Assembly (NCBI RefSeq): GCF_003390325.1
Contig: NZ_QUOK01000001.1
Coordinates: 372,001-436,000, forward strand
Length of the DNA: 64,000 nt
Direction: 5' to 3'
Source of the DNA: Rhodohalobacter sp. SW132
Lineage (GTDB): Bacteria > Bacteroidota > Rhodothermia > Balneolales > Balneolaceae
Position numbers and translations under genes: made by a program. Positions 1,446 to 27,716 of this stretch are shown here, in pieces. Position 1 is the first letter of the stretch. Each line of letters begins with the position of its first letter. Below the pieces are notes generated by a model that saw only the letters and a list, made by a program, of their open reading frames with translations, had not been told where the DNA came from and did not search any database.

Positions 1446-1447
1446 AT

Positions 1448-2383: not shown

Positions 2384-2410
2384 AGAGGTTATGTCGTTCG
2401 GTTGTTTGCA

Positions 2411-2902
2411 TCATTGCATTACATATCTGATGTAATACAAATTGCGTACCGAATGCACACCTATCGCATTATTTGTTACCTCTGCCAGTTCACTGCGCAG
2501 AATTTCTCTCTCTTCGAAGGTATTTAACTGATATACTGTCCGGGATGAAAGCACTTCGATCATTCCATGCTTCACTTTCTGAATATTCTTTTCAATCAGC
2601 TCTGCATGCTTCTCATCACGTAATTCAAGGTTTACCTGTACAACAAGGAACCTCTGGCCGTTTGATCCGGCGGGATTCACAACTAACTCTTCCATGGTAT
2701 ATGAGCCCGGTGTGGGTGCAAAAAGCCCATCCACAAGCTGATAAACATTTCCGTAATTGTGATCAACAATCTGGTAAGCAAGCACCACCTGTGATGCCAG
2801 TACCAGCAGAATCAGGAAATATTTTCCTAAAGGAAGAAATTTTGATCTGCTTTTCTTTTTACTTTTTGCTTCGCCTGTCGGCTTCTTTTTCTTTACAGCC
2901 AT
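2411..2902 (-). CDS. fliL: Flagellar basal body-associated protein FliL
   Basis: This 163-aa protein has a very basic cytoplasmic tail (residues 1-26), one transmembrane helix (about 27-45, FLILLVLASQVVLAYQIV) and a periplasmic domain with the FliL-type core (RFLVVQVNLELRDEKHAELI) and its C-terminal helix (REILRSELAEVTNNAIG). FliL forms a ring round the stator and supports MotAB engagement. Its place between motB and fliM, eight bases after motB, agrees with this. Confidence 0.85.
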   Translation of the reverse strand: MAVKKKKPTGEAKSKKKSRSKFLPLGKYFLILLVLASQVVLAYQIVDHNYGNVYQLVDGLFAPTPGSYTMEELVVNPAGSNGQRFLVVQVNLELRDEKHAELIEKNIQKVKHGMIEVLSSRTVYQLNTFEEREILRSELAEVTNNAIGVHSVRNLYYIRYVMQ

Positions 2903-2909
2903 AGTAGTA

Positions 2910-3665
2910 TTAATCCATTTGATTCAGGCCTTCATGAATTTCCCGGAGTTCACTCTCGGAAAACATGATCGCCGGGTCCTGTGCATCTTGCATCAGACCT
3001 TTGTATCGTACATAAATTTCAACGCGGCGATTCAGGCGCCTGCCGCTTGCAGTTTCATTATTTGCAACCGGCCGGTATTCCCCAAAACTGCTCGATTTAT
3101 ACCGTTCCGGCTCCATATCAGACCGCTCCTGGATAAATTTGAGCACAGATACGCTTCGTGCTGCACCCAGGTGCCAATTCGACCGGTAGTAAGAGCTTGC
3201 TGCTACCGGTACGGTATCAGTATGCCCCTGCACTTCAGACTCTTCAACCTCGTCATCAAATACAGAAGCCACCTCCGCAAGCACACGCCTTGCTGCCGGC
3301 AATAATTCCGAAGATCCGCTATTAAATGTGAGTGAATCACTCAGGGTGATTTTCACACCCTCAGAAATCTCCTCAATATGAACCTGGTCTTCCAGACCTT
3401 CACGTTCTAATAAATCCTCCACAACCTGCCACTTCTCCACCACCATCATCCGGTACGAATCTCTGCTTTGTGTATTCTGTTCGAGAACCGAAGTGTTTTC
3501 AATCACACCGATAGACCGCTGGAAGTATGACAGAAAATTATCAAACACAGAAACATCCACTCCCGGGGTGAGCATATAAAGCACCACGAAGAATACCAAT
3601 AACAGAGTGACAAGGTCACTATACGTCATTAACCAGTTTCCAGAACTCTTTTTAGATCGTCCCAT
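2910..3665 (-). CDS. motB: Flagellar motor stator protein MotB
   Basis: Stator subunit that anchors the motor to peptidoglycan. The short N-terminus is followed by the plug/TM helix with the essential proton-binding Asp (WLMTYSDLVTLLLVFFVVLY, Asp17), then a linker and a C-terminal OmpA-like domain (about 115-225: LTFNSGSSELLPAARRVL, EVQGHTDTVPVAASSYYRSN, RSVSVLKFI, NRRVEIYV). The length (251 aa) is usual. The start overlaps the end of motA by 37 bases, a sign of translational coupling. Confidence 0.95.
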   Translation of the reverse strand: MGRSKKSSGNWLMTYSDLVTLLLVFFVVLYMLTPGVDVSVFDNFLSYFQRSIGVIENTSVLEQNTQSRDSYRMMVVEKWQVVEDLLEREGLEDQVHIEEISEGVKITLSDSLTFNSGSSELLPAARRVLAEVASVFDDEVEESEVQGHTDTVPVAASSYYRSNWHLGAARSVSVLKFIQERSDMEPERYKSSSFGEYRPVANNETASGRRLNRRVEIYVRYKGLMQDAQDPAIMFSESELREIHEGLNQMD

Positions 3666-4507
3666 TCCTTATTCTGCTGTTCTATCCAGAGTTTATAGAA
3701 TCTCTCATCTCGTTCCTTGCTGATGCGTATGCCTTCGTGATATTTGATATACTCTGCGCGGCTTTTCGGATCAACATGGATGAGCATTTTTTTCTCCATA
3801 ATCCGGGGATTCTCACCCTCCAGGATGGAGTTAATACCGGTTCGAAACATCTCCTTTCTGTTCAGGTCGAGCTCGCTGAGGTATTCGAGCTTCCCTGCAA
3901 GCGGACCAAAGAACATGTTTGCCAATATGGTACCATAAAGTGTAGTGATAAGCGCAACGGACAAACCGGCTCCGAGCGATTCAGGATCTGAAATATTCTG
4001 CAGCATCAGTACCATTCCAATAACAGTACCGATCATTCCAAAAGCAGGAGCATAATCGGCCATCGAATACATCACGTTGATGGAGGTATCAATCTGCCGT
4101 TCCCGGCTTTTAATTTCATCACGTAAAATACTATCGAGACTCTCCTTTTTGAATCCATCAACCAGAAGCTGCAATCCGTTTTTCAGGTAGGGATCTTCGA
4201 TGTGCTGAATATCACTGTCGAGAACCAGCACTCCATCCGACCGTACCCGCCGGGCAAACATACTTAGGAGCTCCATATCGGTACGGAGGTCAACATCTTT
4301 CGCACCAATCATACTTAATATTGCGGCGAAGCTCGTTTTGATATTCTCAAAACTGTAGTTAATCATTGTAGCCGCAATTATCCCTCCGCCGACAATAAGA
4401 ATGGCGGCAAAGCTGGCGAATACAAGGACACTTCCCTGCGTTATAATGGCAAGAAATATCAGTGAAAACCCAAGCGTAAATCCTATGACTGTCGATTTAT
4501 CTAACAT
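3629..4507 (-). CDS. motA: Flagellar motor stator protein MotA
   Basis: Proton-channel subunit of the stator. Four membrane helices are visible (about 5-25, 29-49, 148-170, 182-202), with the MotA signature in the second half (YAPAFGMIGTVIGMVLMLQN, SVALITTLYGTILANMFFGP) and a long cytoplasmic loop with charged residues between helices 2 and 3 that contacts FliG. First gene of the unit motA-motB-fliL-fliM-fliN-fliO. A sigma-28-type motif (4515-4541) sits so close to the ATG that a transcript from it would be nearly leaderless; read-through from flgE is limited by the terminator at 4603-4659. Confidence 0.95.
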   Translation of the reverse strand: MLDKSTVIGFTLGFSLIFLAIITQGSVLVFASFAAILIVGGGIIAATMINYSFENIKTSFAAILSMIGAKDVDLRTDMELLSMFARRVRSDGVLVLDSDIQHIEDPYLKNGLQLLVDGFKKESLDSILRDEIKSRERQIDTSINVMYSMADYAPAFGMIGTVIGMVLMLQNISDPESLGAGLSVALITTLYGTILANMFFGPLAGKLEYLSELDLNRKEMFRTGINSILEGENPRIMEKKMLIHVDPKSRAEYIKYHEGIRISKERDERFYKLWIEQQNKEWDDLKRVLETG

Positions 4508-4514
4508 ATGAATC

Positions 4515-4541
4515 TTATCGACTCGCCATTTCGAAACTTAA
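4515..4541 (-). promoter_or_regulatory. Candidate sigma-28 promoter of motA
   Basis: On the minus strand TTAA (4541-4538), 15 bases, then GTCGATAA (4522-4515). It is an exact match to the motif shared by the other motility units in this window. Only seven bases separate the -10 box from the motA ATG, so the transcript would start at or near the start codon. Confidence 0.5.
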
Positions 4542-4602
4542 TTTAAAATCAGCCCGATAATATCAGATTTAATGTTAGAGTTTTAAACCGGGTTTAATCC
4601 AT

Positions 4603-4659
4603 AAAAAAAGCGTTCCGCCTTGATATTTCCCTTTCAGGATTCATCAATGCGAAACGCTT
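4603..4659 (-). terminator. Rho-independent terminator after flgE
   Basis: On the minus strand an 11-bp stem (AAGCGTTTCGC with GCGGAACGCTT, one G-U pair; arms 4659-4649 and 4618-4608) closes a loop of about 30 bases and runs into seven T's. It lies 42 bases after the flgE stop and separates the flgB-flgE operon from motA. Confidence 0.75.
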
Positions 4660-4700
4660 CAATAGATTTAACGATGTTTTAATGAGTCAGACTGAAGAGA

Positions 4701-6329
4701 TTACCGCTTCAGGTTAACAGCCTCCATCAGCATCTCATCGGATGTACTGATTACGCGTGCATTGGACTGATACGCCCGCTGCGATGTGATCATTTCGGTA
4801 AACTCTTTGGCGAGATCAACATTCGATCCCTCGAGAGCACCCGAATTGATGTTTGCATCTGCAAAGTTATCGGCAGTATTTATGAATGTTTCACCGGCTG
4901 CGGATGTAGGGCGGAACATGCCGTTCCCTATCATCTCCATACCGTTCTGGTTCTGAACCTGTGCAATGGCCAGCTGTGCAAGCACCATGTTGTTTCCGTT
5001 GTCGTAAATACCCTGTACACGGCCATCTCCGTCAATCGCAATATCTACAAGTTCACCCTGGGTGTATCCATCCTGGTCAACAACCTTAGCGGTGTTGGAA
5101 CCGGCATATTGTGTGAATCGGGTTCCCTGTGAGGAGTTGCCCAGTTCAACTTCAAAACGGGTTGCACTCGCACCGTTGCCCGGCTCAAACGCAATGTCAA
5201 TTGTGTTTCCGGAAGCGAGCTGACCCAGTTCATCAAATTCCACCGTACCGGTGGCACCATCCGTAATCTCCTGACCATCAATGAATTTCGCTTCATACTC
5301 CCATTCATTGTTTGATGTTTGCGTGAATTCCAGAATCATGGAGTGAGCCCGGCCAAGATCATCATATACTGTGGTACTCATGGTACGTGTATTCGACTCA
5401 CCCGCCTGCACAACCTGGAATCCAGGGAAGTTCACATTACCTGTACCGGTAACCGCAACGTCATTAATCTGCAAGCTGCTGTCACCGAGTTGAGATGAAC
5501 GAAGAACCATCAGGCCGTCAATCAATGTCAGCTGTCCTTCATCACCACCTGCATTCAGCTGTGTGTTAAATGCCTGGATCATATCCTCCATGGTGTCACC
5601 GTCATTGTACGTATAATCGAATGTAGAGGCCGTGCCGTCATTCAGTGTAACGTTGAATGAAATTACATCTCCATTTACAAGATCCTCGTTCGTTTGTGCC
5701 AGATTATTGAGTTCGGTATTGAGGTTTGCCATTCCGCCGCCATCAACTGTGAACCCGTTCTGCCCTTGCACAACCTGCGATTTACTTGTGTTTGCATTGA
5801 GGTTACCTGCCAGCTTCACCTGTTCGGTAGCTTTTGGAGGGAGTGCATTTTCGAAATCAATCCGAATGCCGTTTGTAGTACCGCCGCCAAGAACATTCCC
5901 GTTTCTGTCGGCATTGTATCCCTGAACTTGCCGGCCGCCCTGGTCAACAAGAACTCCGTCTTTATTGAAAACAAAGTTTCCTGCACGGGTCATCAGGTTC
6001 TGGCTGCCGTCGTTCACCATAAAATATCCGTTCCCTTCGAGTGCAAGATCGGTTTCCCGGCCGGTTGTCTGCATGACACCCTGGCTAAAATCCCGGTCGA
6101 TGGATGCTACACGCACACCCAGGCCCACTTCGTTACTCAGCTGCGGGGCAGAATCTCCGCCGGCGCCTGAACGTCCGAGCCGCTGGTTCATCATCTCCGA
6201 AAATGAAACTCTTGAAGATTTGAAACCGGCTGTTTCCACGTTCGCGATGTTATTCCCAATAACATCCATTTTGGTTTGAAACGCTTTCAAACCGCTTACG
6301 CCTGAATTTAGTGATCTGATTAAAGACAT
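4701..6329 (-). CDS. flgE: Flagellar hook protein FlgE
   Basis: Hook subunit of 542 aa. The N-terminal rod/hook signature is present (SLNSGVSGLKAFQTKMDVIG, NNIANVETAGFKSSRVSFSE), followed by the FlgE-type inner segment (GVMQTTGRETDLALEGNGYF, MTRAGNFVFNKDGVLVD) and the C-terminal helix (SNVDLAKEFTEMITSQRAYQ then SNARVISTSDEMLMEAVNL). The middle (about 150-420) is the variable surface domain. A good ribosome site (AAGGAG, seven bases before ATG) supports the start. It is the last gene before the terminator at 4603-4659, downstream of fliK and flgD, the usual hook-assembly order. Confidence 0.95.
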   Translation of the reverse strand: MSLIRSLNSGVSGLKAFQTKMDVIGNNIANVETAGFKSSRVSFSEMMNQRLGRSGAGGDSAPQLSNEVGLGVRVASIDRDFSQGVMQTTGRETDLALEGNGYFMVNDGSQNLMTRAGNFVFNKDGVLVDQGGRQVQGYNADRNGNVLGGGTTNGIRIDFENALPPKATEQVKLAGNLNANTSKSQVVQGQNGFTVDGGGMANLNTELNNLAQTNEDLVNGDVISFNVTLNDGTASTFDYTYNDGDTMEDMIQAFNTQLNAGGDEGQLTLIDGLMVLRSSQLGDSSLQINDVAVTGTGNVNFPGFQVVQAGESNTRTMSTTVYDDLGRAHSMILEFTQTSNNEWEYEAKFIDGQEITDGATGTVEFDELGQLASGNTIDIAFEPGNGASATRFEVELGNSSQGTRFTQYAGSNTAKVVDQDGYTQGELVDIAIDGDGRVQGIYDNGNNMVLAQLAIAQVQNQNGMEMIGNGMFRPTSAAGETFINTADNFADANINSGALEGSNVDLAKEFTEMITSQRAYQSNARVISTSDEMLMEAVNLKR

Positions 6330-6425
6330 AGATTACTCCTTGTTTTAATGACGGCTACAGTTGTTTACTGTATGTGTACCACGTTGGCAAGCCGCTGTAT
6401 GTTTTTTGTTTATGTTCTTATTGAT

Positions 6426-7109
6426 TTATTTAGAAATTCCTGAACCCACTTCTTCCACATCCCCAATCGGAACCTGGATGTTGTTGAGTGACAGAAATAC
6501 GCCGCTTCCCGAATAGCGGACTTTATCTACAATTCCTTCGGTATAGACCATAGAATCGACTCTTGAACCTTCATTTGAAGCTCTCACCTCAACGGTGTAA
6601 TTGCCATCGCCCATTCGGTCGCCGGCATTGTTTCGACCGTCCCATTCCCAGCTGCTATCACCTGAAGGGATGCCCTGGAGCACTTCACGACGAACTTCGC
6701 TGCCGTTTGCACCCCGGATAATCACCTCAACTTCAGATGCTGAGTTGTTCAGTTTATAATTGATATTGGCGCTCTCGCCAGATGCAAGATGCACCTCATT
6801 GCTCAGCGCCTTCACATTTTTGCCTGTAAGAGATGCAGCCATTGAGTTCGTCAAGCTGGAACTCATCAGCTCCTGGCTCTCCTGAAGATGTGCCAGTCCA
6901 TTATTCACATTAATCAGCTGCTCCACAGAGTTAAACTGGGCGAGCTGCGAGGCAAACTCTGCACCGTCCAGCGGGTTGATGGGATCCTGATTTCTCATTT
7001 GAGCCACCAACAACTGAAGGAACTCCTGCTGACCAAGATCATTCTTGTTCTTGGAGGTCCGCTCGTTATTTGCCATTGATGTGAAGCTGTTGATATTGTT
7101 GATATCCAT
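6426..7109 (-). CDS. flgD: Flagellar hook-capping protein FlgD
   Basis: Scaffold that caps the growing hook. The N-terminal FlgD signature is clear (LGQQEFLQLLVAQMRNQDPI then NPLDGAEFASQLAQFNSVEQL, about residues 24-65). The C-terminal half contains the FLG-D Ig-like fold (NGSEVRREVLQGIPSGDSSW EWDGRNNAGDRM). The length (227 aa) is typical. It lies between fliK and flgE. Confidence 0.94.
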   Translation of the reverse strand: MDINNINSFTSMANNERTSKNKNDLGQQEFLQLLVAQMRNQDPINPLDGAEFASQLAQFNSVEQLINVNNGLAHLQESQELMSSSLTNSMAASLTGKNVKALSNEVHLASGESANINYKLNNSASEVEVIIRGANGSEVRREVLQGIPSGDSSWEWDGRNNAGDRMGDGNYTVEVRASNEGSRVDSMVYTEGIVDKVRYSGSGVFLSLNNIQVPIGDVEEVGSGISK

Positions 7110-7128
7110 AATTCTACCTGTTATCTGT

Positions 7129-9087
7129 TTAAGCTGACCATTCCATCTGGTTATAGCCGAATTTCCGAACGGCTTTCGGCACCACTTCGTCTACCTGCTG
7201 TTCTTCTGTTTTTCCATTTTCGTAATCAAAAATCTGACTTCCTTGCTGCTCATTTCCATCGCTGCCGCCAAAAAGTCCGGTCATCTGTCCATCACTCTGC
7301 GTATCCAGCTGCAGGTCGATGGTGATATTCACCTCATCTTCGAGATGTTTACGGATTTCGTCCTGGTGATCCATCAGCAGTTTCTGAAGCTCTGAACTTG
7401 AGGAGCTTAGTTTTATCTGAAGCACACCATCAACTTCCCGTGCTGAAAGCTGGATATTTTTGCCATTCTCGAGTGTAAATGTGTGTTTTTGCCACGCTTC
7501 AGCAGCTTTCTTTCCATCTCCGGTTGCCTTCAGAATGGACTGACCCAGGCTCGTTGCAAAATTTCGGCGAACGGATATATTGGTAACCGTTTCCAGGTTC
7601 AGCCGAGAAAATGCCGCTGCCTGATCTGCTGAACTTTTCTCTTTCGATTCAAAATATTCTGCGATATGCTCTTTCCACATGGCAACAGCATCTTCATCCG
7701 GCAACTCTGCCGATACCTGACTACTCTCCGGCACCATTCCGGTAACGGAAACCATGTTCAATTTACCCGGATCAGAACCTGCCATCACACCGCTTCCCGC
7801 TGCTGTTTGAGCGCCGGAATTCAATGCAGCTTCAGGTCTGCCCGCAAAAGCGGCCCTGTAATTTTGATTTCTTATTTCGCGCAGCTGATTCGCTTTAATA
7901 CTTCTTACTTCAGCCGCCTGCTGATCGATATTTCCATTTGCCAGGTCGGCAAACATTTTCTGAATCAGCTCATTTTCGTCTGTATCAAGATCTATTTTTT
8001 TGCTGTCGTTATTTGGCTGGGTTTCAGAAAAAGCTCCGCCTAAAATTCCTCCGCGAAGCTGATTCACAAGCCCGCTGTCGCGTTCAGCCCGGACTGTTTG
8101 TTCAGCTCTCCTGTTTTCCGCTGGAGCTTCTGCTTCCCGTTTTACATTCCCTGCAACGACACGCTCAGCATCACCCTGTGATGCTGCCACATTACCGTTC
8201 TCATTACCAGACGTTTCACCGGATGCTACATGATTAGTTTCATAAGTCTCTTTTTTCTCCACTCCGGCATCGGATGCCATTTCCGGGCTTATCTTTACCT
8301 GTGGGTCGTCACCCGCTGCAGCCTGTGGCTCATCATCTGTCGCCGCTTGCGAATCATCACCTGTTTCTTCGGTTTCATCTGATTCGGAAACAAATTCAAT
8401 GCCGCCCTCTTCAAATTCTCCATCAGTGATTTCATCAGATTGATTTTCACTGTTATCGGTATCTAAACTGAGGGAATTTTCTTCAGCAGAACCTTTTGTA
8501 TCAGATTCTTCACCATTTGCATCAGATTCCTTCAAAACCTCATTTGCATCAGGTTCTTTCAAATTCTCTACTTTCTCGGAATCCCCGCGGTAAAATGGAG
8601 TATCCTCTGCCAGGGGAATCTTCTTGTTTTGATCACTTTCTGCTTTTACATCAGATTTCTCATCCCCGGTCTTTACATCCGTGGAATGATCGGCATTTTC
8701 TTCACTTTTTAACTTTGAACCGTTTTCATTCAATTCTTCTTCTGAAACGGAGCTTTTCATCGCATTTTCCAGTAATTCGGAAATGGTTGAAAGCTCATCA
8801 TTAGAATTTTTTTCCAGTCCGGTCAGGATATCCTTAAGAGATGCATCATCGGATTCATTTTTGCCGGTGATCAAATTCCCCCCAAGTATCCGGCCTGAGG
8901 CAAAATTTTTACCGGTATTTTCATCCTGCCCGCCATCCTTATCTGCGAGCTGAATGCTTCCCATCAGAAATTTGAACAGTCCGCCTTCTGCTTTCTCTTC
9001 GCTTTTCTGTTTTTCACCACCTGCCTGTCCTGTCAGAAGATCGGAGGTTTTACTGTTTCCTGCGGATAGTAGCTGATTATTTATCAT
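7129..9087 (-). CDS. fliK: Flagellar hook-length control protein FliK
   Basis: Secreted molecular ruler for hook length. Only the C-terminal domain (about residues 500-600: KHTFTLENGKNIQLSAREVD, LQIKLSSSSSELQKLLMDHQ DEIRKHLEDEV) is recognisable as the FliK switch domain (Flg_hook). The first 330 residues are a low-complexity, highly acidic Ser/Asp/Glu/Asn-rich region, as expected for the unfolded ruler part. At 652 aa it is long for the family. The ATG overlaps the stop of the preceding motE-like gene by four bases (ATGA). The family call rests on domain, composition and position between fliJ and flgD. Confidence 0.82.
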   Translation of the reverse strand: MINNQLLSAGNSKTSDLLTGQAGGEKQKSEEKAEGGLFKFLMGSIQLADKDGGQDENTGKNFASGRILGGNLITGKNESDDASLKDILTGLEKNSNDELSTISELLENAMKSSVSEEELNENGSKLKSEENADHSTDVKTGDEKSDVKAESDQNKKIPLAEDTPFYRGDSEKVENLKEPDANEVLKESDANGEESDTKGSAEENSLSLDTDNSENQSDEITDGEFEEGGIEFVSESDETEETGDDSQAATDDEPQAAAGDDPQVKISPEMASDAGVEKKETYETNHVASGETSGNENGNVAASQGDAERVVAGNVKREAEAPAENRRAEQTVRAERDSGLVNQLRGGILGGAFSETQPNNDSKKIDLDTDENELIQKMFADLANGNIDQQAAEVRSIKANQLREIRNQNYRAAFAGRPEAALNSGAQTAAGSGVMAGSDPGKLNMVSVTGMVPESSQVSAELPDEDAVAMWKEHIAEYFESKEKSSADQAAAFSRLNLETVTNISVRRNFATSLGQSILKATGDGKKAAEAWQKHTFTLENGKNIQLSAREVDGVLQIKLSSSSSELQKLLMDHQDEIRKHLEDEVNITIDLQLDTQSDGQMTGLFGGSDGNEQQGSQIFDYENGKTEEQQVDEVVPKAVRKFGYNQMEWSA

Positions 9088-9722
9088 AGCATAATCTCCC
9101 GCATCAGTTTCGCTGCACGTTCGGGGTTTAGTGACCGAAGTAATTTTTCGCGCTGAATATTTCCAGAGTGCCTGTATATCCGCACCAATTCGTCTTGAGT
9201 CATCTGGTTGGCGATCGGCTTCAATTCTTCTTCATCGAGGTTGAGCAAACTTTTTACCCGCTCTGAAAACTCTTCTGTCGGTTCATCAGCAGCTGCCACC
9301 ATTTCGACATCATTGCCTGAATCTGCATCCTGCCGGTTACCGGCAATCAATCCGCCGCCCTGCTCTATTTGCTCTTTTAAATTTTCCAGTTCTGTAAAAA
9401 GAGAATCCCGTTCCTGCTCAACCGAATTTTGTACCGCTAATACCGAATCAACCCTGTTTTCCCAGTTCCGGTTCTCCTGTTTTTGTCGCAGCAATTCCTG
9501 TTGAAGATAGGCAAACCGACCCGTGCCACTGATGTTGCTTTCCGGCATCAGATCAACATCGGTAAATACCTGCTCATCCACTGAACTCTGCAGGCGCTCG
9601 GTCTGAATCTGTTCATACTTCTGCTCGTTCAGGTACGGAAATAGAAAAAACGTAACGAGAGTTATCACCAGGAATGAGGCGATCAGAATACCGATAATTT
9701 TTAGTAGTACTGACTTATCCAT
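9084..9722 (-). CDS. MotE-like flagellar protein (TM, coiled coil, MgtE-N-like tail)
   Basis: 212 aa. One N-terminal membrane helix (about 6-29, IGILIASFLVITLVTFFLFP), a coiled coil (about 70-125, rich in Gln/Glu/Leu heptads), and a C-terminal helical domain (about 150-210: SLLNLDEEELKPIANQMTQD, LLRSLNPERAAKLMREI) resembling the MgtE N-terminal repeat found in MotE. MotE proteins, encoded between fliJ and fliK in several phyla, act as stator (MotB) chaperones. Position here is identical: eight bases after fliJ, overlapping fliK by four. Function is by analogy. Confidence 0.65.
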   Translation of the reverse strand: MDKSVLLKIIGILIASFLVITLVTFFLFPYLNEQKYEQIQTERLQSSVDEQVFTDVDLMPESNISGTGRFAYLQQELLRQKQENRNWENRVDSVLAVQNSVEQERDSLFTELENLKEQIEQGGGLIAGNRQDADSGNDVEMVAAADEPTEEFSERVKSLLNLDEEELKPIANQMTQDELVRIYRHSGNIQREKLLRSLNPERAAKLMREIML

Positions 9723-9730
9723 TTCGTTAA

Positions 9731-10159
9731 CTATCTGCTAAATGATTGTGTAGCGATTTCGTCCATCGTTTTCTGCTCACTGCGCTGAATTTTCTTTGAA
9801 AACATCTGCTGTTCCACCTCTTTAAGCTTCTCCAGTATATGGCACTCTTTATGAGCATCTGCCAGTGAATTCCGAACTTCAGAAACTGACTTATCTGCCT
9901 CCTGTGATTCAGATCCCAGTTTGCGGATCAGTTCATGGGTTTGGAGAACATGCCTTCCGTGGCGTTTAATTGTTTGAATATTTGCGGCTGTCTGTACGGA
10001 ATCGGTTTCCAGGTAGTGGTTCAGCTTGTTTTGCACCTCAACCTTCACATCATCAATTTTTTTCTTCTTCATCAGTTCTTCAGCCAGTTTCTGCTTCTGA
10101 ACTTTTTCCTGATGCTTGCGAACCTTCAATACCGATTCCAGCGAAAATTTAAAAGCCAT
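9731..10159 (-). CDS. fliJ: Flagellar export protein FliJ
   Basis: 142-aa all-helical, highly charged coiled-coil protein with the FliJ N-terminal pattern (MAFKFSLESVLKVRKHQEKV QKQKLAEEL). FliJ is the central stalk of the FliHIJ ATPase complex, like the gamma subunit of F1. It follows fliI by 13 bases. Sequence identity in this family is low, so the call uses length, composition, the F-x-L-x2-VL-x-VR start and position. Confidence 0.85.
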   Translation of the reverse strand: MAFKFSLESVLKVRKHQEKVQKQKLAEELMKKKKIDDVKVEVQNKLNHYLETDSVQTAANIQTIKRHGRHVLQTHELIRKLGSESQEADKSVSEVRNSLADAHKECHILEKLKEVEQQMFSKKIQRSEQKTMDEIATQSFSR

Positions 10160-10172
10160 GTAATCTGCCGAT

Positions 10173-11507
10173 TTAACTAACGATTTTTTTCAGCGCACCC
10201 CAGAGATCATCCCTGAAGTCAGCTTCGTTCATATCCTGTATCAAAAATGATTCCAAATTGGGATGTTTTTTGATCGCTTCGTCAATTTTTTGATTAGAAC
10301 CTTTCACATATGCCCCGATGTTCACCAAATCTTCCGCTTCGCGATAGGTAGCCAGAAGTTCACGGGCTTTCATAGCCACCGCGCGCTGCTCATCCGATAC
10401 AATATTCGGCATCACCCGGGAAATACTTTCCAGTATATCGATGGCGGGATAGTGATTTTTATGGGCCAAACGCCTGGAAAGCACGATATGCCCATCCAAA
10501 ATAGAACGCACGGCATCGGCTATCGGCTCATTCATATCGTCGTTATCCACAAGAACTGTATAGATTCCGGTGATGCTTCCTTCCCCTGTTTTCCCTGCCC
10601 GTTCCAGCAGTTTCGGGAGGATCGCAAACACGCTGGGGGTATATCCTTTTGTGGTTGGCGGTTCGCCGGATGCCAGGCCAATTTCCCGCTGGGCCATCGC
10701 AACACGGGTAACAGAATCCATCATCAAAAGGACATTTTTTCCCTGGTCGCGGAAATATTCTGCAATTGCGGTAGCCGTAAACGCTCCTTTGATCCGGCTC
10801 ATCGCAGCCATGTCTGATGTAACAGCAACTACAACCGATCGTTTCAGCCCTTCTTCGCCAAGAGTGTCTTCAATAAATTCCTGCACCTCCCGGCCCCGCT
10901 CCCCGATAAGAGCGATCACGTTCACATCCGCTTCCGAATGTTTGGCAATCATTCCCAGGAGAACACTTTTTCCCACACCCGAACCGGCGAAAAGCCCCAC
11001 ACGCTGACCAGATCCAATTGTATTCAGTGCATCAAGAGCCCGAACGCCGGTAAACATAATATCTTCAATACGGTTTCGATCGAGCGGTGCCGGGGGATCA
11101 CCGTGCACGTCCTGGTGGCCACTTCGCATTACTGGGCCATTTTTGTCAATCGGCATGGCGTTGGCATCGAGCACGCGGCCCAGCATATCATCACCTACCG
11201 GAATGGTAAGTGCCTGACCAAAACTCTCTACCAGGCAGCCCGATTTCATTCCCTCTACCCGGTCGTACGGCATCAAAAGTGTTCGTTCATCTTTCAGGCC
11301 TACCACTTCGGCTTCAACAATTTTTCCGGTAATCGTGTGTATTCCGTAGATCTCTCCCACACAGGCTTCCAGCCCGGTACATTCGATAATGGTTCCAATC
11401 ACGGAAGATACCTTACCAAAGCGTTTTGAGCGTACACGATTCGACCGCAGGTGTTTCCTGATGTGATTGAAATGTTTCGTAATATCTTTGGCAGCTATGG
11501 CTTCCAT
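10173..11507 (-). CDS. fliI: Flagellum-specific ATPase FliI
   Basis: Export ATPase, F1-beta-like. Walker A is GSGVGKS (residues 175-181); Walker B ends at Asp264 (NVLLMMDS); the family motif GEPPTTKGYTPSVF is present. The length is 444 aa. The gene overlaps fliH by 13 bases, so the ATPase and its stator/regulator are translationally coupled. Confidence 0.97.
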   Translation of the reverse strand: MEAIAAKDITKHFNHIRKHLRSNRVRSKRFGKVSSVIGTIIECTGLEACVGEIYGIHTITGKIVEAEVVGLKDERTLLMPYDRVEGMKSGCLVESFGQALTIPVGDDMLGRVLDANAMPIDKNGPVMRSGHQDVHGDPPAPLDRNRIEDIMFTGVRALDALNTIGSGQRVGLFAGSGVGKSVLLGMIAKHSEADVNVIALIGERGREVQEFIEDTLGEEGLKRSVVVAVTSDMAAMSRIKGAFTATAIAEYFRDQGKNVLLMMDSVTRVAMAQREIGLASGEPPTTKGYTPSVFAILPKLLERAGKTGEGSITGIYTVLVDNDDMNEPIADAVRSILDGHIVLSRRLAHKNHYPAIDILESISRVMPNIVSDEQRAVAMKARELLATYREAEDLVNIGAYVKGSNQKIDEAIKKHPNLESFLIQDMNEADFRDDLWGALKKIVS

Positions 11508-12175
11508 GTGGGGAGTGTGAGTGATTTTTTCAGGTCAGCCAGCATAGTTTTAAAGGTGTGAACCACCGTTTCGCGATTACTTTCCAGCTTGTATTCCCCT
11601 GGATTGAACGATTTATCCGTTCGGATATAAATAGTTGTTCCGGGTGCATACTCCTCCTTTAGCCGGTTGATATACTCGCGGTCTGATTCTGAAATCCACA
11701 GTACCGGTTTAGTCGTTTCCTCTATTCTTTGCAAAATCGGCCCGAGTTCAGCTTCCATGCTGTTTCTGATCTCCGGATTTTCGACCGGAATTTCGAGAAT
11801 CGACTCCGCAAGTTCGAAGGCGAGGTCGATGACACCCGGATCGAGAAGTTTCTGCCTCTCCTGCCATTCACCGTGTGCTTCTTTCAGGGTCGAGTCTAAC
11901 CGCTGAACCTTAAAATCAATCTCTTCGGCAGCCTGTTTGTAGCCTTGTTCCAATCCTTCCTGCAGGGCTGCTTCGTAAACATCCTTTCGCGCGCGCCGGA
12001 GCCTCTCTTCCCACTGGCGGTTATTTTCAGCTAATAACTCTTCAATATCAGGCTGCTCCTCACTCCCGGAAATCTCTTCCGGCGTGCGCTCATCAAAAAG
12101 CATTTTGTAGCTGAGTGTAGCCTGATCTTTTTGGTCCCAGCTGATATTGTTGTTGTTAATAATTCTGCGGCTCAT
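11495..12175 (-). CDS. fliH: Flagellar assembly protein FliH
   Basis: 226 aa. FliH regulates FliI and links it to the C-ring. Features are a central charged helix rich in Glu/Arg/Gln (about 45-110: ENNRQWEERLRRARKDVYEA, QEGLEQGYKQAAEEIDFKVQ), where FliH glycine-repeat helices usually lie, and a C-terminal V-ATPase-E/FliH-like domain (VIDLAFELAESIL, EYINRLKEEYAPGTTIYI). It sits seven bases after fliG and overlaps fliI. Confidence 0.85.
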   Translation of the reverse strand: MSRRIINNNNISWDQKDQATLSYKMLFDERTPEEISGSEEQPDIEELLAENNRQWEERLRRARKDVYEAALQEGLEQGYKQAAEEIDFKVQRLDSTLKEAHGEWQERQKLLDPGVIDLAFELAESILEIPVENPEIRNSMEAELGPILQRIEETTKPVLWISESDREYINRLKEEYAPGTTIYIRTDKSFNPGEYKLESNRETVVHTFKTMLADLKKSLTLPTWKP

Positions 12176-12181
12176 AATGGA

Positions 12182-13225
12182 TTACTCAACAATCTCTTCT
12201 TCTTCCATCTTACGTGTACTGATCTGTCCGCTCTCTTCAAGGGCCTTGATCTTCTTAATAATGCTAGACTGGGCCTCCTTCACATCTTTAAGCGGCACAG
12301 GACCAAGGGCTTCCATATCTTCTTTGAGCATATCTGCTGCCCGGTTCGACATGTTTCTGAGAAACTTTTCGGCAAGTTGCTCTTCCACACCTTTCAGACC
12401 CATAACAAGATCCGCTTTTTCCATTTCGTTGATGATGAGCTGAACAGTTCTGTCGTCGAAGTGAATGATATCTTCGAAAAGGAACATTTGCTCTTTAATC
12501 TCATCTGCCATCTTATTATCTCGTGCGGTAATACTGTCGAGAACGGCGCGTTCAACCGAAATTTCAGCTTCATTAAGAATATGAGCAACGGTAGCCGTAC
12601 CACTTTTTACGCGATCGCCCATCGAATCCATTCCTCCCATATGCTCTTTGATTACCTCTTCGATCTCTTCGATCACCTCTGAGGAAATTTTGTCCATCGA
12701 TGCCAGGCGAAACATAATCTCTCCCTGCATCTCCGGTTCGAGGTGGGTAAGAATTTCGGCTGCTTTATCCATTTGAAGCTGCGAAAAAATCAGTGCCGCA
12801 ACCTGTGGATGCTCATTCTGGATAAAGTTCGCAATCTGCGTAATTTTTGTATCCTGAAATTCATCAAATACAGTGGTTCCGGATTGTGCTTTCAGTTTCC
12901 GCAGCATTTTTTCGGAATTCGCATTTCCGCCGAGCTCACCAAGAAGTTCTGTTGCATAATCATAGCCACCCTCGAGAATGTACTGCTTGGCCTCCATCAT
13001 CTGGTAAAACTGCCGAAGAATATCGTCTACAACATCCGTTTTTACGTTCTGTATTTTTGCCACTTCCAGCATAATCTCTTCTACCTCATTGGATTTAAGA
13101 GATTTCATCATCTCGGAGGCCGTTTTTGAACCTACCGTTATGATAAACACAGCAGCTTTTTGTGCTCCCGTTAGCTTACTAACATCGTCAACCAGGTCCG
13201 ATTTCTTTTTCGTTTTTATAGCCAT
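12182..13225 (-). CDS. fliG: Flagellar motor switch protein FliG
   Basis: Torque-generating C-ring protein, 347 aa. The N-terminal domain (LTGAQKAAVFIITVGSKTAS), middle armadillo part with the EHPQ motif (IQNEHPQVAALIFSQL) and C-terminal domain with the charged torque helix (DDRTVQLIINEMEKADLVMG LKGVEEQLAEKFLRNMSNRA) are all present. It starts two bases after fliF, as the FliF-FliG partners usually do. Confidence 0.97.
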   Translation of the reverse strand: MAIKTKKKSDLVDDVSKLTGAQKAAVFIITVGSKTASEMMKSLKSNEVEEIMLEVAKIQNVKTDVVDDILRQFYQMMEAKQYILEGGYDYATELLGELGGNANSEKMLRKLKAQSGTTVFDEFQDTKITQIANFIQNEHPQVAALIFSQLQMDKAAEILTHLEPEMQGEIMFRLASMDKISSEVIEEIEEVIKEHMGGMDSMGDRVKSGTATVAHILNEAEISVERAVLDSITARDNKMADEIKEQMFLFEDIIHFDDRTVQLIINEMEKADLVMGLKGVEEQLAEKFLRNMSNRAADMLKEDMEALGPVPLKDVKEAQSSIIKKIKALEESGQISTRKMEEEEIVE

Positions 13226-13227
13226 AA

Positions 13228-14889
13228 TTACGCTTCATCCTCCAAAGTCATCATTGCGCGGATTACATGTGCTGCTTCAGCAGGTTTCAGTTCAACAAAA
13301 TCTTTGATTTCTTCCATCACATAGGCTTTCTGTTCAAGCTGTTTCCGTGATTTTGCTGTGAGTTTCTTATCCACAAAGTCTTCGATCTCAACGTCACTCA
13401 TTCCTTCGAGGCTCAGCTTCTCCTCATCTGTAAGATCCAGTTGTTCAATATCCGTCTTCTCTTTTGGAGCAGGAAGACTTACAGCAACTCCCGTATCTTC
13501 ATCCTCGCCCATCCGTTTCCTGATATTCATAATCAGCGCAACAATTGTCAGGAAGGTTGCAAGGATCAGTACCCATCGGAAAATATCACCCCATGGCGTG
13601 GGCTGATCGGTAAAGTATCCGTAGTTGTCTGTTGCCGTAGGATCGTGAAATTGTATTTGTGTGATAGTAAGTTCATCACCCCGGGCGGGTGACATTCCCA
13701 GTGCCAGACGAACAACTTCGCGAAACTCTTCAATTTCTTCCTGTGCATAAGGCTGCGCTACCAGCACCTCCTCTCCGGCATCGTTTACCTCTGTACCCAT
13801 TTTGTAATTCAGTAAAACGGATGCAGAAAGCCGCTTGATTTCACCCTGTGTTTTCTCAAAAATTTCGCGGGTTTTGTTTACTTCATAATTTCGTGTCTGC
13901 GACGTGGTTTCCTGATTCCTTTGGGATGTGACTACCGATTCACCTCTCTGTGCGACCGGGGTAAACTCGTCGATCGGCACAAGCTGTAGGTTCTCTTCGT
14001 TATTGGCCTCGGTTCGGCGGTCTTCAGAAATAATCAACCGGCTGTCCGGGTCGATCAGGTCCGATTCGCGTACCAGCCGGTCAAAATCGTGCTCGGCCGA
14101 TACCCGCAGAATACTGTTTCCGTTTCCAAGCACACGATCCAGCATGCTTTGACCGCGCTCGGTCAGGTACGTTTCGGTAGTTTTCCGAAGCTGCATCTGC
14201 AAATTACCGGATGCAAAGTCCCCCTGGTTATCGGCATTTTCCGTGAGCCGGTTTCCAGCCTGGTCTAATATGGTTACTGATTCGCTGTCGAGCATCTCCA
14301 CACTTCCTGCTATCAGTGAAGTAATACCAGTCACCTGGTCACCTGAAAGTTTTTGCCCTTGTTTGAGTGTAATGATTACCGACGCGCTTGCGCTCACGGA
14401 TGACTGCTGAAAGGGTGTTCGCTCCGGCAGCACAAGATGGACGCGGGAAAACTCAACCTGGTCGAGGCTGTTAATTGATCGAGCCAGTTCGCCTTCAAGA
14501 GCACGTTTTTTATTCACCTGCTGCATGAAGTCGGTCATCCCCAGGGAGTTGGCATCAAAAAGTTCATATCCCTGAACATCTGACCGGGAGGAGCTGACCG
14601 TTGCCAGTTTCATCCTCATTTCGTGAACCTGGGCATTCGGCACATAAATGGATCTTCCGTCGTTTTCCACCCGGTAATTAACGCCTTGTTCTTCCAGCTG
14701 AGCCACAACTTCCTGGGCGGCTTCGGGCTGAAGAGAACCAAAAAGAAGAGCGTAATCGGGTTTTAACGCCCAGTAAAAAAGAGCACCGAGAAACACAAAA
14801 ATAGCCACAACCATCCCTACAAAAAGGGTGCGCTGTGCCGGATTCAGGGGGCCAAAAAATTGCTGGAAACTATCTGTAAACTTGTTCAT
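13228..14889 (-). CDS. fliF: Flagellar MS-ring protein FliF
   Basis: 553-aa MS-ring subunit. Membrane helices are at about 21-44 (LFVGMVVAIFVFLGALFYWA) and 435-455 (WVLILATFLTIVALIMNI), bracketing the periplasmic ring-building motifs (YALLFGSLQPEAAQEVVAQL, ALEGELARSINSLDQVEFSR VHLVLPE). The C-terminal FliG-binding tail ends in ELKPAEAAHVIRAMMTLEDE, matching the FliF-C motif. First large gene after fliE. Confidence 0.97.
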   Translation of the reverse strand: MNKFTDSFQQFFGPLNPAQRTLFVGMVVAIFVFLGALFYWALKPDYALLFGSLQPEAAQEVVAQLEEQGVNYRVENDGRSIYVPNAQVHEMRMKLATVSSSRSDVQGYELFDANSLGMTDFMQQVNKKRALEGELARSINSLDQVEFSRVHLVLPERTPFQQSSVSASASVIITLKQGQKLSGDQVTGITSLIAGSVEMLDSESVTILDQAGNRLTENADNQGDFASGNLQMQLRKTTETYLTERGQSMLDRVLGNGNSILRVSAEHDFDRLVRESDLIDPDSRLIISEDRRTEANNEENLQLVPIDEFTPVAQRGESVVTSQRNQETTSQTRNYEVNKTREIFEKTQGEIKRLSASVLLNYKMGTEVNDAGEEVLVAQPYAQEEIEEFREVVRLALGMSPARGDELTITQIQFHDPTATDNYGYFTDQPTPWGDIFRWVLILATFLTIVALIMNIRKRMGEDEDTGVAVSLPAPKEKTDIEQLDLTDEEKLSLEGMSDVEIEDFVDKKLTAKSRKQLEQKAYVMEEIKDFVELKPAEAAHVIRAMMTLEDEA

Positions 14890-14900
14890 TTAGAAGAACC

Positions 14901-15212
14901 TTAAATTTGCATCCGGCTGATTTCATGATAAGCTTCGATCGCCTTATTGCGAACTTCAACCATCATCTGAAAACTGAGTTGGGCACGCTGCATGGAAATC
15001 ATCACATCGTGCACGTTATCGGTTTTACCGGCTACAAAATCCTGAACGTTCTGATCGGATTCTTTCATGGTTTCATCCACGCTGCCAACGGCGCGGATCA
15101 GCATATCCGAAAAAGATTCACCGCCTTGCTGAGGCCGCACACTGCTGCCTCTCTCCGGGGAGATCTCGATCTCTCGGAACGGTCGTATTCCCTGTATATC
15201 AAATGAGTCCAT
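14901..15212 (-). CDS. fliE: Flagellar hook-basal body complex protein FliE
   Basis: 103-aa adaptor between the MS ring and the rod. The C-terminal half carries the family pattern (FSDMLIRAVGSVDETMKESD, VHDVMISMQRAQLSFQMMVE VRNKAIEAYHEISRMQI). The stop is 12 bases before fliF. FliE is the first substrate of the flagellar exporter. Confidence 0.95.
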   Translation of the reverse strand: MDSFDIQGIRPFREIEISPERGSSVRPQQGGESFSDMLIRAVGSVDETMKESDQNVQDFVAGKTDNVHDVMISMQRAQLSFQMMVEVRNKAIEAYHEISRMQI

Positions 15213-15244
15213 AGTCTGAGGTATCCGTAGTAGTTTATTATTCT

Positions 15245-15472
15245 TTACGCTCTTGTATCAACATTCATGCCACGATCTGCAAAGCTGTGCTCGCTTACGC
15301 TCCCCTGCAGATCATAAAGCCTGACCGGTGTGGAAGAGGCAAAATTTTTCTTAATCATGGAGGATTCTTCCACTGTCAGAGATGGCGGCGTTGAAGCAGC
15401 AGCAACTTTTCGAATTCCGTTGTTTCGGATCGACAGATCCTGCTGCTGATTAAAAATAGGTTCCGTTATCAT
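15245..15472 (-). CDS. Unknown 75-aa protein inside the flagellar operon
   Basis: Not recognised. The frame is open, starts with ATG, lies four bases after flgC and 32 bases before fliE, on the same strand, so it is almost surely co-transcribed with rod genes. No signal peptide or membrane helix. The middle has a small helical segment (SLTVEESSMIKKNF) and the end reads PVRLYDLQGSVSEH...VDTRA. The size and position would suit a rod/export accessory, but this is inference only. Confidence 0.65.
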   Translation of the reverse strand: MITEPIFNQQQDLSIRNNGIRKVAAASTPPSLTVEESSMIKKNFASSTPVRLYDLQGSVSEHSFADRGMNVDTRA

Positions 15473-15476
15473 TATT

Positions 15477-15974
15477 TTATATTTCGAGTGAACGTTTAAT
15501 GATCTCTTTCTCAGCTTCTACTGCACTCAGGTTAGCTTCATACAGCCTGTTTGCACTCACAAGCTGAGTCATCTCGCGAACCAAGTCCACATCAGGGTAG
15601 CGTACCATACCGTTCTCATCTGCATCAGGATGATTTGGATCAAACTCATACCGGAATGAATCCTGCTCGGTAACCTCAAATTCGGGACCAAGCCCGGCGG
15701 TTTTCTGAGCGGACTGAATCGGTCCTGCCTGGCTGAAATGTTTAGAATCGGTTCGCTTAAGCGTGGAAATGCTGTCGAGAAGCAGGTTTTTGAAATTATC
15801 CTGGGGAACCGGGCGGGACTGGACCGTTTGCGGACGGTATATTTGATCTGATCCTTTCGGAGCAGATACCCCGGCGTTGGCAATATTTCTGGAAGCCGTG
15901 GCAATTTTTTCCCGCTGCACGGCAAGACCTTTTCCTGCCGTTTGAAATGTTGAAAAAATTCTGTCAGGTAGCAT
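15477..15974 (-). CDS. flgC: Flagellar basal-body rod protein FlgC
   Basis: Proximal rod subunit, 165 aa. The N-terminal rod motif is slightly unusual (IFSTFQTAGKGLAVQREKIA TASRNIANAG), and the FlgC C-terminus is canonical (DPNHPDADENGMVRYPDVDL VREMTQLVSANRLYEANLSA). It is 14 bases after flgB. Confidence 0.95.
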   Translation of the reverse strand: MLPDRIFSTFQTAGKGLAVQREKIATASRNIANAGVSAPKGSDQIYRPQTVQSRPVPQDNFKNLLLDSISTLKRTDSKHFSQAGPIQSAQKTAGLGPEFEVTEQDSFRYEFDPNHPDADENGMVRYPDVDLVREMTQLVSANRLYEANLSAVEAEKEIIKRSLEI

Positions 15975-15988
15975 AGTCTGTTTCTGAA

Positions 15989-16333
15989 TTATCGGTTAAT
16001 GCCTGTGATGCCGTTCTTAAGCATCTCAAAATGGTGGCGGAGTGACCGGGTGACAAGATTTACCCGAACCTGTGTGTCTGCCATTTCAAGAAGCTCATCT
16101 TCCAGTTCAATCGGCTGATCGGTCTCGACGATACTGGGCGTAACCTCTTTCATGCCGCGTGCGCCGGAGCTGTTTTGAACACGCTGCAGTTCTTCCTCAA
16201 AATCAACGCGGTGCTTATTAAAGCCCGGTGTATCGGCATTTGCGATATTTCCCGCCGTCACGCGCTGCCGAAGCGTGTAGGTATCCATGGCACGTGCGAG
16301 CAGCTGAGTGTGGTTGCTGTCAATTAATTTCAT
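15989..16333 (-). CDS. flgB: Flagellar basal-body rod protein FlgB
   Basis: 114-aa proximal rod subunit and first gene of the long flagellar operon. It shows the rod signature (LRQRVTAGNIANADTPGFNK HRVDFEEEL) and the C-terminal helix (QVRVNLVTRSLRHHFEMLKN GITGINR). A sigma-54 promoter lies about 100 bases upstream (16444-16459). Confidence 0.96.
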   Translation of the reverse strand: MKLIDSNHTQLLARAMDTYTLRQRVTAGNIANADTPGFNKHRVDFEEELQRVQNSSGARGMKEVTPSIVETDQPIELEDELLEMADTQVRVNLVTRSLRHHFEMLKNGITGINR

Positions 16334-16443
16334 TGCAATACGATAGTCTGTAGATGATGATCCGGCATGATTTACATCACCAACCGGATTTAATGGAACA
16401 TTTCAATGTTTCTGGAATAGAAGCATTGGTTCGCCAGTTTGTT

Positions 16444-16459
16444 TGCAAACCGCGTGCCA
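16444..16459 (-). promoter_or_regulatory. Sigma-54 (RpoN) promoter of the flgB operon
   Basis: The minus strand reads TGGCACGCGGTTTGCA: a perfect -24 box (TGGCAC), five bases, and a perfect -12 box (TTGCA). Transcription would start near 16433, leaving a leader of about 100 bases before flgB. Sigma-54 control of rod/hook genes is known in many flagellated bacteria and needs an NtrC-type activator, which is not in this window. Confidence 0.85.
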
Positions 16460-16548
16460 ACCGACAATCTCCCAATTTGGCGCTGAAACCTGTACAATCG
16501 GGCTGGCTGATAATATTCAGACAGCAGAAATGACCGCGTATATGGCAA

Positions 16549-16569
16549 ATATTTCCAGATCTGAAATAT
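16549..16569. promoter_or_regulatory. Candidate enhancer palindrome for an NtrC-type activator
   Basis: ATATTTC (16549-16555) and GAAATAT (16563-16569) form a perfect 7-bp inverted repeat with a seven-base spacer. It lies about 125 bases upstream of the predicted sigma-54 start site, in the range used by bacterial enhancer-binding proteins, and just before the sigma-28-like box of the divergent kinase gene. Function is inferred from position only. Confidence 0.3.
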
Positions 16570-16572
16570 CTC

Positions 16573-16599
16573 TTAACCCAACCTTCCCGCTGCTGATAA
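16573..16599 (+). promoter_or_regulatory. Candidate sigma-28 promoter of the FlgS-like kinase
   Basis: TTAA (16573-16576), 15 bases, GCTGATAA (16592-16599). It has one mismatch in the -10 box relative to the motif shared by other motility units here, and lies 84 bases before the kinase ATG. Confidence 0.4.
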
Positions 16600-16682
16600 C
16601 TCGTAAAAGCCACCCAGGGACATCAAATGATTTATTCCGCGGGAGTTTTATCAACCATTGTGAACCTTTAGATTAGATTGGC

Positions 16683-17699
16683 ATGTTAATGGAGATGAAT
16701 ACAAGCACAACAGGTAAACTCAAATTGGAAACCCGTTCGATGAACTCCCTGAGAACCCTAATATCCGGATCAGCAGATCCTGTTTTCCTGCTCAATCCGG
16801 ATGATCAAACTATCGTTGCGGCAAATGATACTGCAATATCAGCCTGCGGTGATGTTGATCTCGTTGGGAAAAAGCTGGATCAGGTGGTTCATTTTGAAAC
16901 TTTATCAGACCAGCCCAATGACGAAATTGCCTATTTTAATAATCAGTGGCTGGTTCCACACTCTCGCAGAATAAAATTGAATCACAAAACGTATAATAAA
17001 TTGGATTTAGCCCCATCATCATCCATTCCGGATGATAACACGCTCTTTACAATCCGTAAAATGATCGCTGTTCTGCTCCACAGACTGCGTTCGCCCATGA
17101 CAGGCATGCAGGGATATCTCGAGATGATCCAGGATGTAAAACACGACAATGATAAACGAAAGCTCGCAAAAGTTGGCGAAGGCCTCGATTATCTCTTTGA
17201 AATTATGGATGAACTTGAACTCCTTCATCACGCTGAAGCTTACCTGGAGGATGAGCCCAATGCAACGGCTTCCGACGCTGAAACCGTAATCCGCCAAATG
17301 CTGATCGAGTACCCGGTGGAGCTGCGGAACCGTGTAAAAATTGAAACACACACGAACCAGCAATTTGAATTTAACAGTGCCGAGCTCAAACAGATTGTTA
17401 CATTACTGCTGAATAACAGTGCCGAACACCAAAGCGGAATAAATAAGCCGGTGAAAATAGACATTCACTCCGGGCGAAAAATCACAGTCACAAATTTTGG
17501 CACTCCCATACCAGATGAAGTGGTGGATAATCTCTATTTCCCGTTTGTAACCACAAAAGCAAACAACCTGGGCATCGGCCTGAGCCTGGCCCAGTTAATT
17601 GCTGGCAGACGGGGAGCCACTATCGTTCTTACCGAAAACAGCCCTGTTCTCGGTATTTCCTTCTCACTGATTTGTAAGCCACAGGAAATATCATCCTGA
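16683..17699 (+). CDS. NtrB/FlgS-like sensor histidine kinase
   Basis: 338-aa soluble kinase, divergent from flgB. It has an N-terminal PAS-like domain (about 20-75, SADPVFLLNPDDQTIVAAND), a DHp segment with phospho-acceptor His (LLHRLRSPMTGMQGYLEMI), and an ATPase domain with N-box (LLLNNSAEH), a changed G1 box (VTNFGTPIP in place of DxGxG), F-box (LYFPFVTTK) and G2 box (LGIGLSLAQ). No membrane helix. NtrB/FlgS kinases activate sigma-54 response regulators; being next to the sigma-54 flagellar promoter makes that role likely, but no FlgR/NtrC partner is present. Several in-frame ATGs (16683, 16689, 16695) make the exact start uncertain. A terminator follows at 17704. Confidence 0.75.
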   Translation: MLMEMNTSTTGKLKLETRSMNSLRTLISGSADPVFLLNPDDQTIVAANDTAISACGDVDLVGKKLDQVVHFETLSDQPNDEIAYFNNQWLVPHSRRIKLNHKTYNKLDLAPSSSIPDDNTLFTIRKMIAVLLHRLRSPMTGMQGYLEMIQDVKHDNDKRKLAKVGEGLDYLFEIMDELELLHHAEAYLEDEPNATASDAETVIRQMLIEYPVELRNRVKIETHTNQQFEFNSAELKQIVTLLLNNSAEHQSGINKPVKIDIHSGRKITVTNFGTPIPDEVVDNLYFPFVTTKANNLGIGLSLAQLIAGRRGATIVLTENSPVLGISFSLICKPQEISS

Positions 17700-18058: not shown

Positions 18059-18120
18059 AATCACTACGTAGCGATGTTTTCAGAACTCTGTCTAAAATTA
18101 TCACAAATAGATTGAAAAGA

Positions 18121-27588: not shown

Positions 27589-27615
27589 TTATCGACTGTC
27601 CGATTTAAACCTTAA
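27589..27615 (-). promoter_or_regulatory. Candidate sigma-28 promoter of cheW
   Basis: Minus strand TTAA (27615-27612), 15 bases, GTCGATAA (27596-27589). An exact match to the shared motif, 63 bases before the cheW ATG. Confidence 0.55.
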
Positions 27616-27716
27616 ACCATTCACCGCAATGTTAATATTTCTGCAGTATGGCGCAGGCTGACAGGAATCGGAATTTATCCGACTCCCATCCTGCACACTT
27701 GTATTCATCAATCTTA

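Follow-up and report, generated by a model that had tools for sequence, protein, structure and literature searches.

How are the flagellar genes of this genome switched on, and does the sensor kinase gene that lies divergently beside flgB take part? In the stretch of DNA analysed here (64,000 nucleotides, hereafter the window), a preliminary description had placed a full -24/-12 element at the head of a flgB...flgE run, next to an FlgS/NtrB-like kinase with a sigma-28-like motif and a palindrome, and had read these features as a sigma-54-then-sigma-28 hierarchy with feedback through the kinase in a Bacteroidota-related lineage. A search for the kinase across 78 genomes drawn from the same genus, family and order gave a clear relative in 30, the window's genome included. 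flgB could be placed beside the kinase in 29 of these 30 loci, the exception being genome G003, and 29 is the denominator of the counts upstream of flgB. The named relatives belong to the Balneolales (Balneola, Gracilimonas, Fodinibius/Aliifodinibius and MAGs), with 3 of 28 carrying only the name Bacteroidetes; the lineage is therefore Balneolota, in agreement with the placement first proposed. Dinucleotide shuffles of the upstream regions provided the background expectation for motif conservation. The features of the locus are collected in Table 1.

Table 1. Features of the kinase-flgB region (positions in the window).
Feature	Position	Strand	Remarks
flgC, fliE, fliF, fliG, fliH, fliI, fliJ, unnamed gene, fliK, flgD, flgE, motA, motB, fliL, fliM, fliN	450..15974	-	genes named by order and similarity
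flgB, first gene of predicted operon	15989..16333	-	TIGR01396 over cut-off
sigma-54 promoter (-24/-12), flgB operon	16444..16459	-	TGGCACGCGGTTTGCA; kept upstream of flgB in 24/29 relatives
candidate for a second activator half-site, degenerate	16524..16537	-	GCGGTCATTTCTGC; roughly two turns downstream from the site in the next row
upstream activator site (predicted)	16544..16556	-	GGAAATATTTGCC; 13-bp imperfect dyad, consensus GGAAAAATTTGCC; centred 91 nt upstream of the -24 element
palindrome ATATTTC-N7-GAAATAT	16548..16568		present, kept in 1/29
sigma-28-like promoter of kinase	16573..16599	+	TTAAC-N14-GCTGATAA
cytoplasmic PAS-HisKA-HATPase sensor kinase	16683..17699	+	Pfam; HR-x-R-S-P H-box (H133, R134)

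We then focused on the -24/-12 element, TGGCACGCGGTTTGCA, which stands on the minus strand, 126 nt ahead of the flgB start codon (ATG, 16333), and holds the GG and GC of the two boxes at their fixed spacing (TGGCAC-N5-TTGCA). By itself this motif says little, and it is not rare genome-wide: with at most one mismatch allowed, three matches were found in the window against 1.4 expected, and 127 in the whole genome against 109 for a reversed control. Judging the site from counts in one genome was dropped for want of an excess over the control, and conservation was therefore taken as the test. TGGCAYN5TTGCH was found upstream of flgB in 24 of 29 Balneolales genomes (shuffle mean 0.04), and its relaxed form, TGGCAYN5TTG, in all 29 (shuffle mean 0.14). 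The element described earlier is thus present and conserved in position, and flgB is indeed the first gene of a co-directional run, which reaches beyond flgE. Judging from this conservation, the site between the kinase and flgB belongs to a real control region that is widespread in Balneolota.

Reading the kinase-flgB intergenic regions side by side brought to light an additional element, the dyad GGAAAAATTTGCC, which is present in 22 of 29 of them (0.01 in shuffles). The same dyad recurs as GGAAANNNTTTCC in 17 of 28 flgF-flhB intergenic regions (0.03 in shuffles), and GG[CA]AANNNTTNCC dyads occur in each of the eight flgB upstream regions that were read from loci lying mostly in other families of the class. 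Its centre stands 71, 81-85, 91-94 or 101-104 nt from the -24 element of flgB, and these distances repeat with a period near 10.3 bp (P = 2.5e-4 per genus, two genomes with larger distances, 169 and 233, being excluded from the test), and loci read later share the same phases. Moreover, its distance to the sigma-28-like -10 of the kinase is also phased (41-44, 52-53 and 62, with exceptions at 50, 59 and 65; P = 2e-4), while no phase is visible in the distances to the flgF promoter (69-222). The candidate half-site GCGGTCATTTCTGC was noticed by eye in many relatives, where the pattern test is weak (8/29 versus 0.43 in shuffles). As for the palindrome, it exists as described, with its centre some 125 nt upstream from where transcription is expected to start, but it is kept in the window's own genome only, which rules it out as the conserved activator site; the conserved element (16556-16544) overlaps its left arm. 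Accordingly placed, the newly recognised putative activator-binding site is GGAAAAATTTGCC/GGAAANNNTTTCC.

Continued by fliO, fliP, fliQ and fliR, mostly outside the window, the flgB run contains the genes of the MS ring, the C ring, the export ATPase and the export core, and a separate run starting at flhB ends in fliA; the gene order of both runs is the same in three relatives. flgF and flhB each have a conserved -24/-12 site of their own, of the TGGCAYN5TTGAW type before flgF (22/28) and of the TGGTACN5TTGAW type before flhB (17/28), and a fourth conserved sigma-54 site precedes fliS-fliD in three relatives, being weak in the window's genome. Further sigma-54 sites had been anticipated, also at flagellin genes; they are found before flgF, flhB and fliS, whereas the flagellins, and cheW, have sigma-28 sites instead. 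With basal body genes in the flgB run and fliA closing the flhB run, sigma-54 would drive both the basal body and sigma-28, if these long runs are transcribed as operons. A sigma-54-like sequence 60 nt before fliE, TGGCATGAATGTTGAT (15272-15257, minus strand), was rejected as a second conserved promoter, as three relatives showed no such site at fliE; it may represent an internal sigma-54 site. Matches inside flhB and flhA were set aside as conserved coding sequence. A small membrane ORF lies directly before fliA (G000 contig C1:365991-366224), in flagellated and FlhA-less relatives alike.

The genome has a complete rpoN (501 aa, RpoN box ARRTVSKYR) and three activators with a strong sigma-54 domain, one of which is an orphan NtrC-type activator inside the flagellar cluster, so that both regulators to be expected from the preliminary description are present. 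The flagellar activator (473 aa; G000 contig C1:349500-350921) follows fliS, fliD and a FlgM-like gene, the latter named by position and C-terminus only and having no Pfam match. It is intact, with a receiver carrying the Asp, an AAA+ domain with GAFTGA and a Fis HTH. Its nearest curated models are NtrC and AtoC, with scores far below the cut-offs, and the Campylobacter FlgR model NF049963 gives 316 bits against a cut-off of 750. Of the 78 genomes, 31 have an ortholog (53-86% identical), and 27 of the 30 kinase-bearing genomes belong to these 31 (Fisher P = 1.5e-13); FlhA marks the same genome set (P = 2e-15); these co-occurrence counts, like the phasing P values, are not fully independent, because the species are related to one another. 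The mismatches comprise three genomes with the kinase and no detected activator and four with the reverse, six of these seven being less than 90% complete (G066, 93%).

Tens of kilobases separate the two genes in Balneolales. In 10 of the 12 loci fetched, which come almost entirely from families of the class other than this one, the kinase gene is followed by the activator gene, adjacent and on the same strand, and flgB lies divergently beside the pair in all seven of these ten loci that hold flgB. The kinase at class level has about 250 aa and lacks the PAS domain. Because they form one apparent operon in other families of the class, the kinase and the flagellar activator are very probably partners. 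A tree of the activators adds weak support, one of its rows (L102) having been wrongly chosen and its paralog branches being long.

Pfam's HisKA model matches the kinase over its cut-off, and no membrane helices were seen in the protein, as judged by eye. Its nearest models are AtoS, PhoR and ZraS, with scores far below their cut-offs, and the NtrB model NF008293 reaches 23 bits against 240. In 39 kinase sequences the phospho-acceptor His and a Ser at H+4 are invariant, and H+1 is R in 38 and L in one, never the E or D usual for HisKA. The N-box Asn and the G2 glycines are invariant in the 38 readable sequences, in all of which the Asp of G1 is replaced by N, H, S or T. An acidic neighbour of the histidine is important for autophosphorylation in HisKA kinases; as both this residue and the G1 Asp are absent, phosphotransfer by the kinase is uncertain. 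The HR box is shared by the class-level relatives, and the H-box pattern of the family was found only in Balneolota-type genomes. Being a cytoplasmic HisKA-HATPase kinase tied to a flagellar sigma-54 regulator, the protein can be grouped with FlgS, FlrB and FleS in type, and the earlier likening to FlgS/NtrB holds for its PAS-HisKA-HATPase architecture; it fails at the histidine, which is followed by R where HE would be expected, and at the NtrB cut-off. Judging from these residues, the divergent kinase represents a family of its own (HR-box) and is at most a candidate FlgS or NtrB. A PAS-domain protein is encoded after the kinase (18112-19575, plus strand), and occupies the same place in several relatives.

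Upstream of the kinase, TTAA[GA]-N14/15-GCYGATAA is present in 18 of 29 relatives (0 in shuffles), and its -10 part, GCTGATAA, in 24 of 29, so that the sigma-28-like motif noticed earlier proves to be conserved across the order; the window's own -35, TTAAC, is one base off the family consensus and weaker. Flagellin promoters of the order read TTTAAG-N16-CGATAA; the motif at the kinase agrees with them in spacing and differs in its -10, TGATAA. Likewise, when compared with a TAA(A/G)-N15-GCCGATAA-like sigma-28 pattern, the spacing is correct and conserved, and the difference lies in the -10. Only 8 of 29 kinase upstream regions scored above all shuffles with a strict matrix derived from flagellin promoters, which is too strict and was dropped as proof of sigma-28 at the kinase. 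Based on spacing and conservation, the kinase promoter is likely read by sigma-28. The exact flagellin-type sequence occurs in the window's genome before three flagellins, before cheW and in one other place; the cheW site (27589-27616, minus strand) lies 63 nt before the gene (26969-27526). The three flagellin genes are near-identical (G000 contig C1:321660-325228, locus L078), and short head-to-tail CCCTGCA repeats lie upstream of at least one of them.

Altogether, we propose, with a probability of roughly three in four for the explanation as a whole, that the kinase-flgB intergenic region works as a two-way control region. The NtrC-type activator would bind the dyad GGAAAAATTTGCC and, with sigma-54, drive the flgB operon from the -24/-12 promoter, and the same activator would also serve flgF, flhB and probably fliS-fliD. 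Sigma-54 activity would raise sigma-28 through fliA, the last gene of the flhB run, and the kinase, as cognate kinase of the flagellar activator, would be transcribed from a sigma-28-type promoter on the far side of the shared activator site. As fliA lies in a putative sigma-54 operon, a closed loop is likely, running from kinase to activator to sigma-54 to fliA and back to the kinase, which would close it if it is sigma-28 dependent. The simplest sign would be positive feedback, released once sigma-28 becomes free. At the level of sequence, the hierarchy first put forward is supported by the sites, rpoN, fliA and the activator, and feedback through the kinase, of either sign, would be implied.

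Other readings were weighed against this one. That the flgB element is a chance match would fit the near-background counts within a single genome; conservation at the homologous place, far above that in shuffles, already refutes it, and it can be dismissed for practical purposes. Nor is it probable that GGAAAAATTTGCC belongs to some other regulator, such as a nucleoid protein or a repressor, and not to the sigma-54 activator: such a regulator would explain why the dyad, upstream of the sigma-28-like promoter of the kinase, is in phase with that promoter too and why G003, where flgB is gone, keeps it at the kinase, but the dyad accompanies sigma-54 promoters (flgB, flgF/flhB and, in the FlhA-less relatives described below, fliA) at distances usual for such activators, which makes this reading very improbable.

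The loop might also have the opposite sign, with a late kinase made by sigma-28 acting mainly as a phosphatase or sink and shutting the sigma-54 genes after hook completion. This we consider unlikely: the late-type promoter and the replaced H+1 and G1 residues are consistent with it, whereas the invariant His, N-box Asn and G2 glycines are those of a working kinase, the Ser at H+4 is not the T or N usual for phosphatase activity, and the activator would need another kinase. Decidedly unlikely is that the activator receives its phosphate from another kinase, or is active unphosphorylated, and that the flgB-linked protein is a non-catalytic sensor binding the activator or the basal body. Its degenerate catalytic residues, as well as the separation of the two genes in Balneolales, would agree with such a role; nevertheless, operon pairing in other families and near-perfect co-occurrence argue for a cognate pair, and the positive loop remains our preferred reading.

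The proposed circuit resembles FlgS/FlgR of Campylobacter and Helicobacter in the presence of FlhF/FlhG and in the use of sigma-28 for flagellins (PMC7064773). In Campylobacter, FlgS senses an MS ring, rotor and export core that have been built beforehand, and the sigma-54 genes start only then (PMC7064773). Here, by contrast, fliF, fliG, fliP-Q-R, flhA and flhB lie within the sigma-54 runs themselves, so that the Campylobacter order cannot hold unchanged unless further promoters exist, and the kinase has a PAS domain, an HR box and a sigma-28-type promoter. FlrB/FlrC of Vibrio and FleS/FleR of Pseudomonas likewise combine a PAS-containing cytoplasmic kinase with a sigma-54 activator near flagellar genes, and a second activator (FlrA/FleQ) drives the early genes and the kinase gene there (PMC7064773), whereas one flagellar activator was found here and the kinase promoter is sigma-28-like. 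The kinase differs from those of the FlgSR and FlrBC systems in lacking the acidic residue after the histidine. NtrB/NtrC, AtoS/AtoC and ZraS/ZraR provide the nearest curated models and share the upstream dyad with a -24/-12 promoter, but differ in their scores far below the cut-offs, the flagellar context and the H-box. In the library searched, no paper turned up on flagellar gene control in the Balneolota lineage and nothing relevant on sigma-54 flagellar control in Rhodothermus, Salinibacter or Balneola. Judging from these comparisons, we are dealing with a new version of the two-component control of flagella by sigma-54, one that suggests a single sigma-54 tier already holding the basal body together with a late-made kinase, unlike the Campylobacter checkpoint. 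Activator site, promoter and partner pair are all defined, which makes it testable in cultured Gracilimonas and Fodinibius/Aliifodinibius.

Most of the control system is also retained in relatives where no flagellar export gene was found. G003, of the window's own genus, had no FlhA, FlgF or flagellin match (the bin is 89% complete, with 7% contamination), and, at a place from which the structural genes are missing, holds a FlgM-like gene, the activator (86%), fliA (81%) and the kinase side by side (contig C166:46988-52498; L033, L147-L150). Its kinase retains the activator site and the sigma-28-like promoter, and its fliA is preceded by a sigma-54 site, TGGCACCAAACTTGTG, and activator-like sites. 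FlhA is absent from all 13 genomes of family f19 of the same class (loci L274, L275, L278, L284-L295), several of them 97-100% complete, and a kinase relative is present in all 13.

The f19 neighbourhood was read in seven of these genomes. Five of the seven clusters (G211, G208, G216, G228 and G230) have, in order, the kinase, the activator, an activator-type dyad (with one mismatch in G208), a sigma-54 site, a small membrane ORF and fliA; fliA is differently arranged in G225, and the contig ends in G227. Both f19 fliA proteins that were checked pass the FliA/WhiG cut-off. The dyad at fliA provides independent support for the activator site. Whether the HR-box kinase, sigma-54 activator, activator site and fliA constitute an independent regulatory module, which would outlive the flagellum and then control something else, we regard as evenly balanced; the survival of these parts outside flagellated bacteria was unexpected, and raises the question of what a "flagellar" sigma-28 does without a flagellum. 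In the f19 clusters a TPR-like gene and an HDOD gene precede the kinase, and in G228 (L278) a short transposase-like ORF lies between the kinase and the activator.
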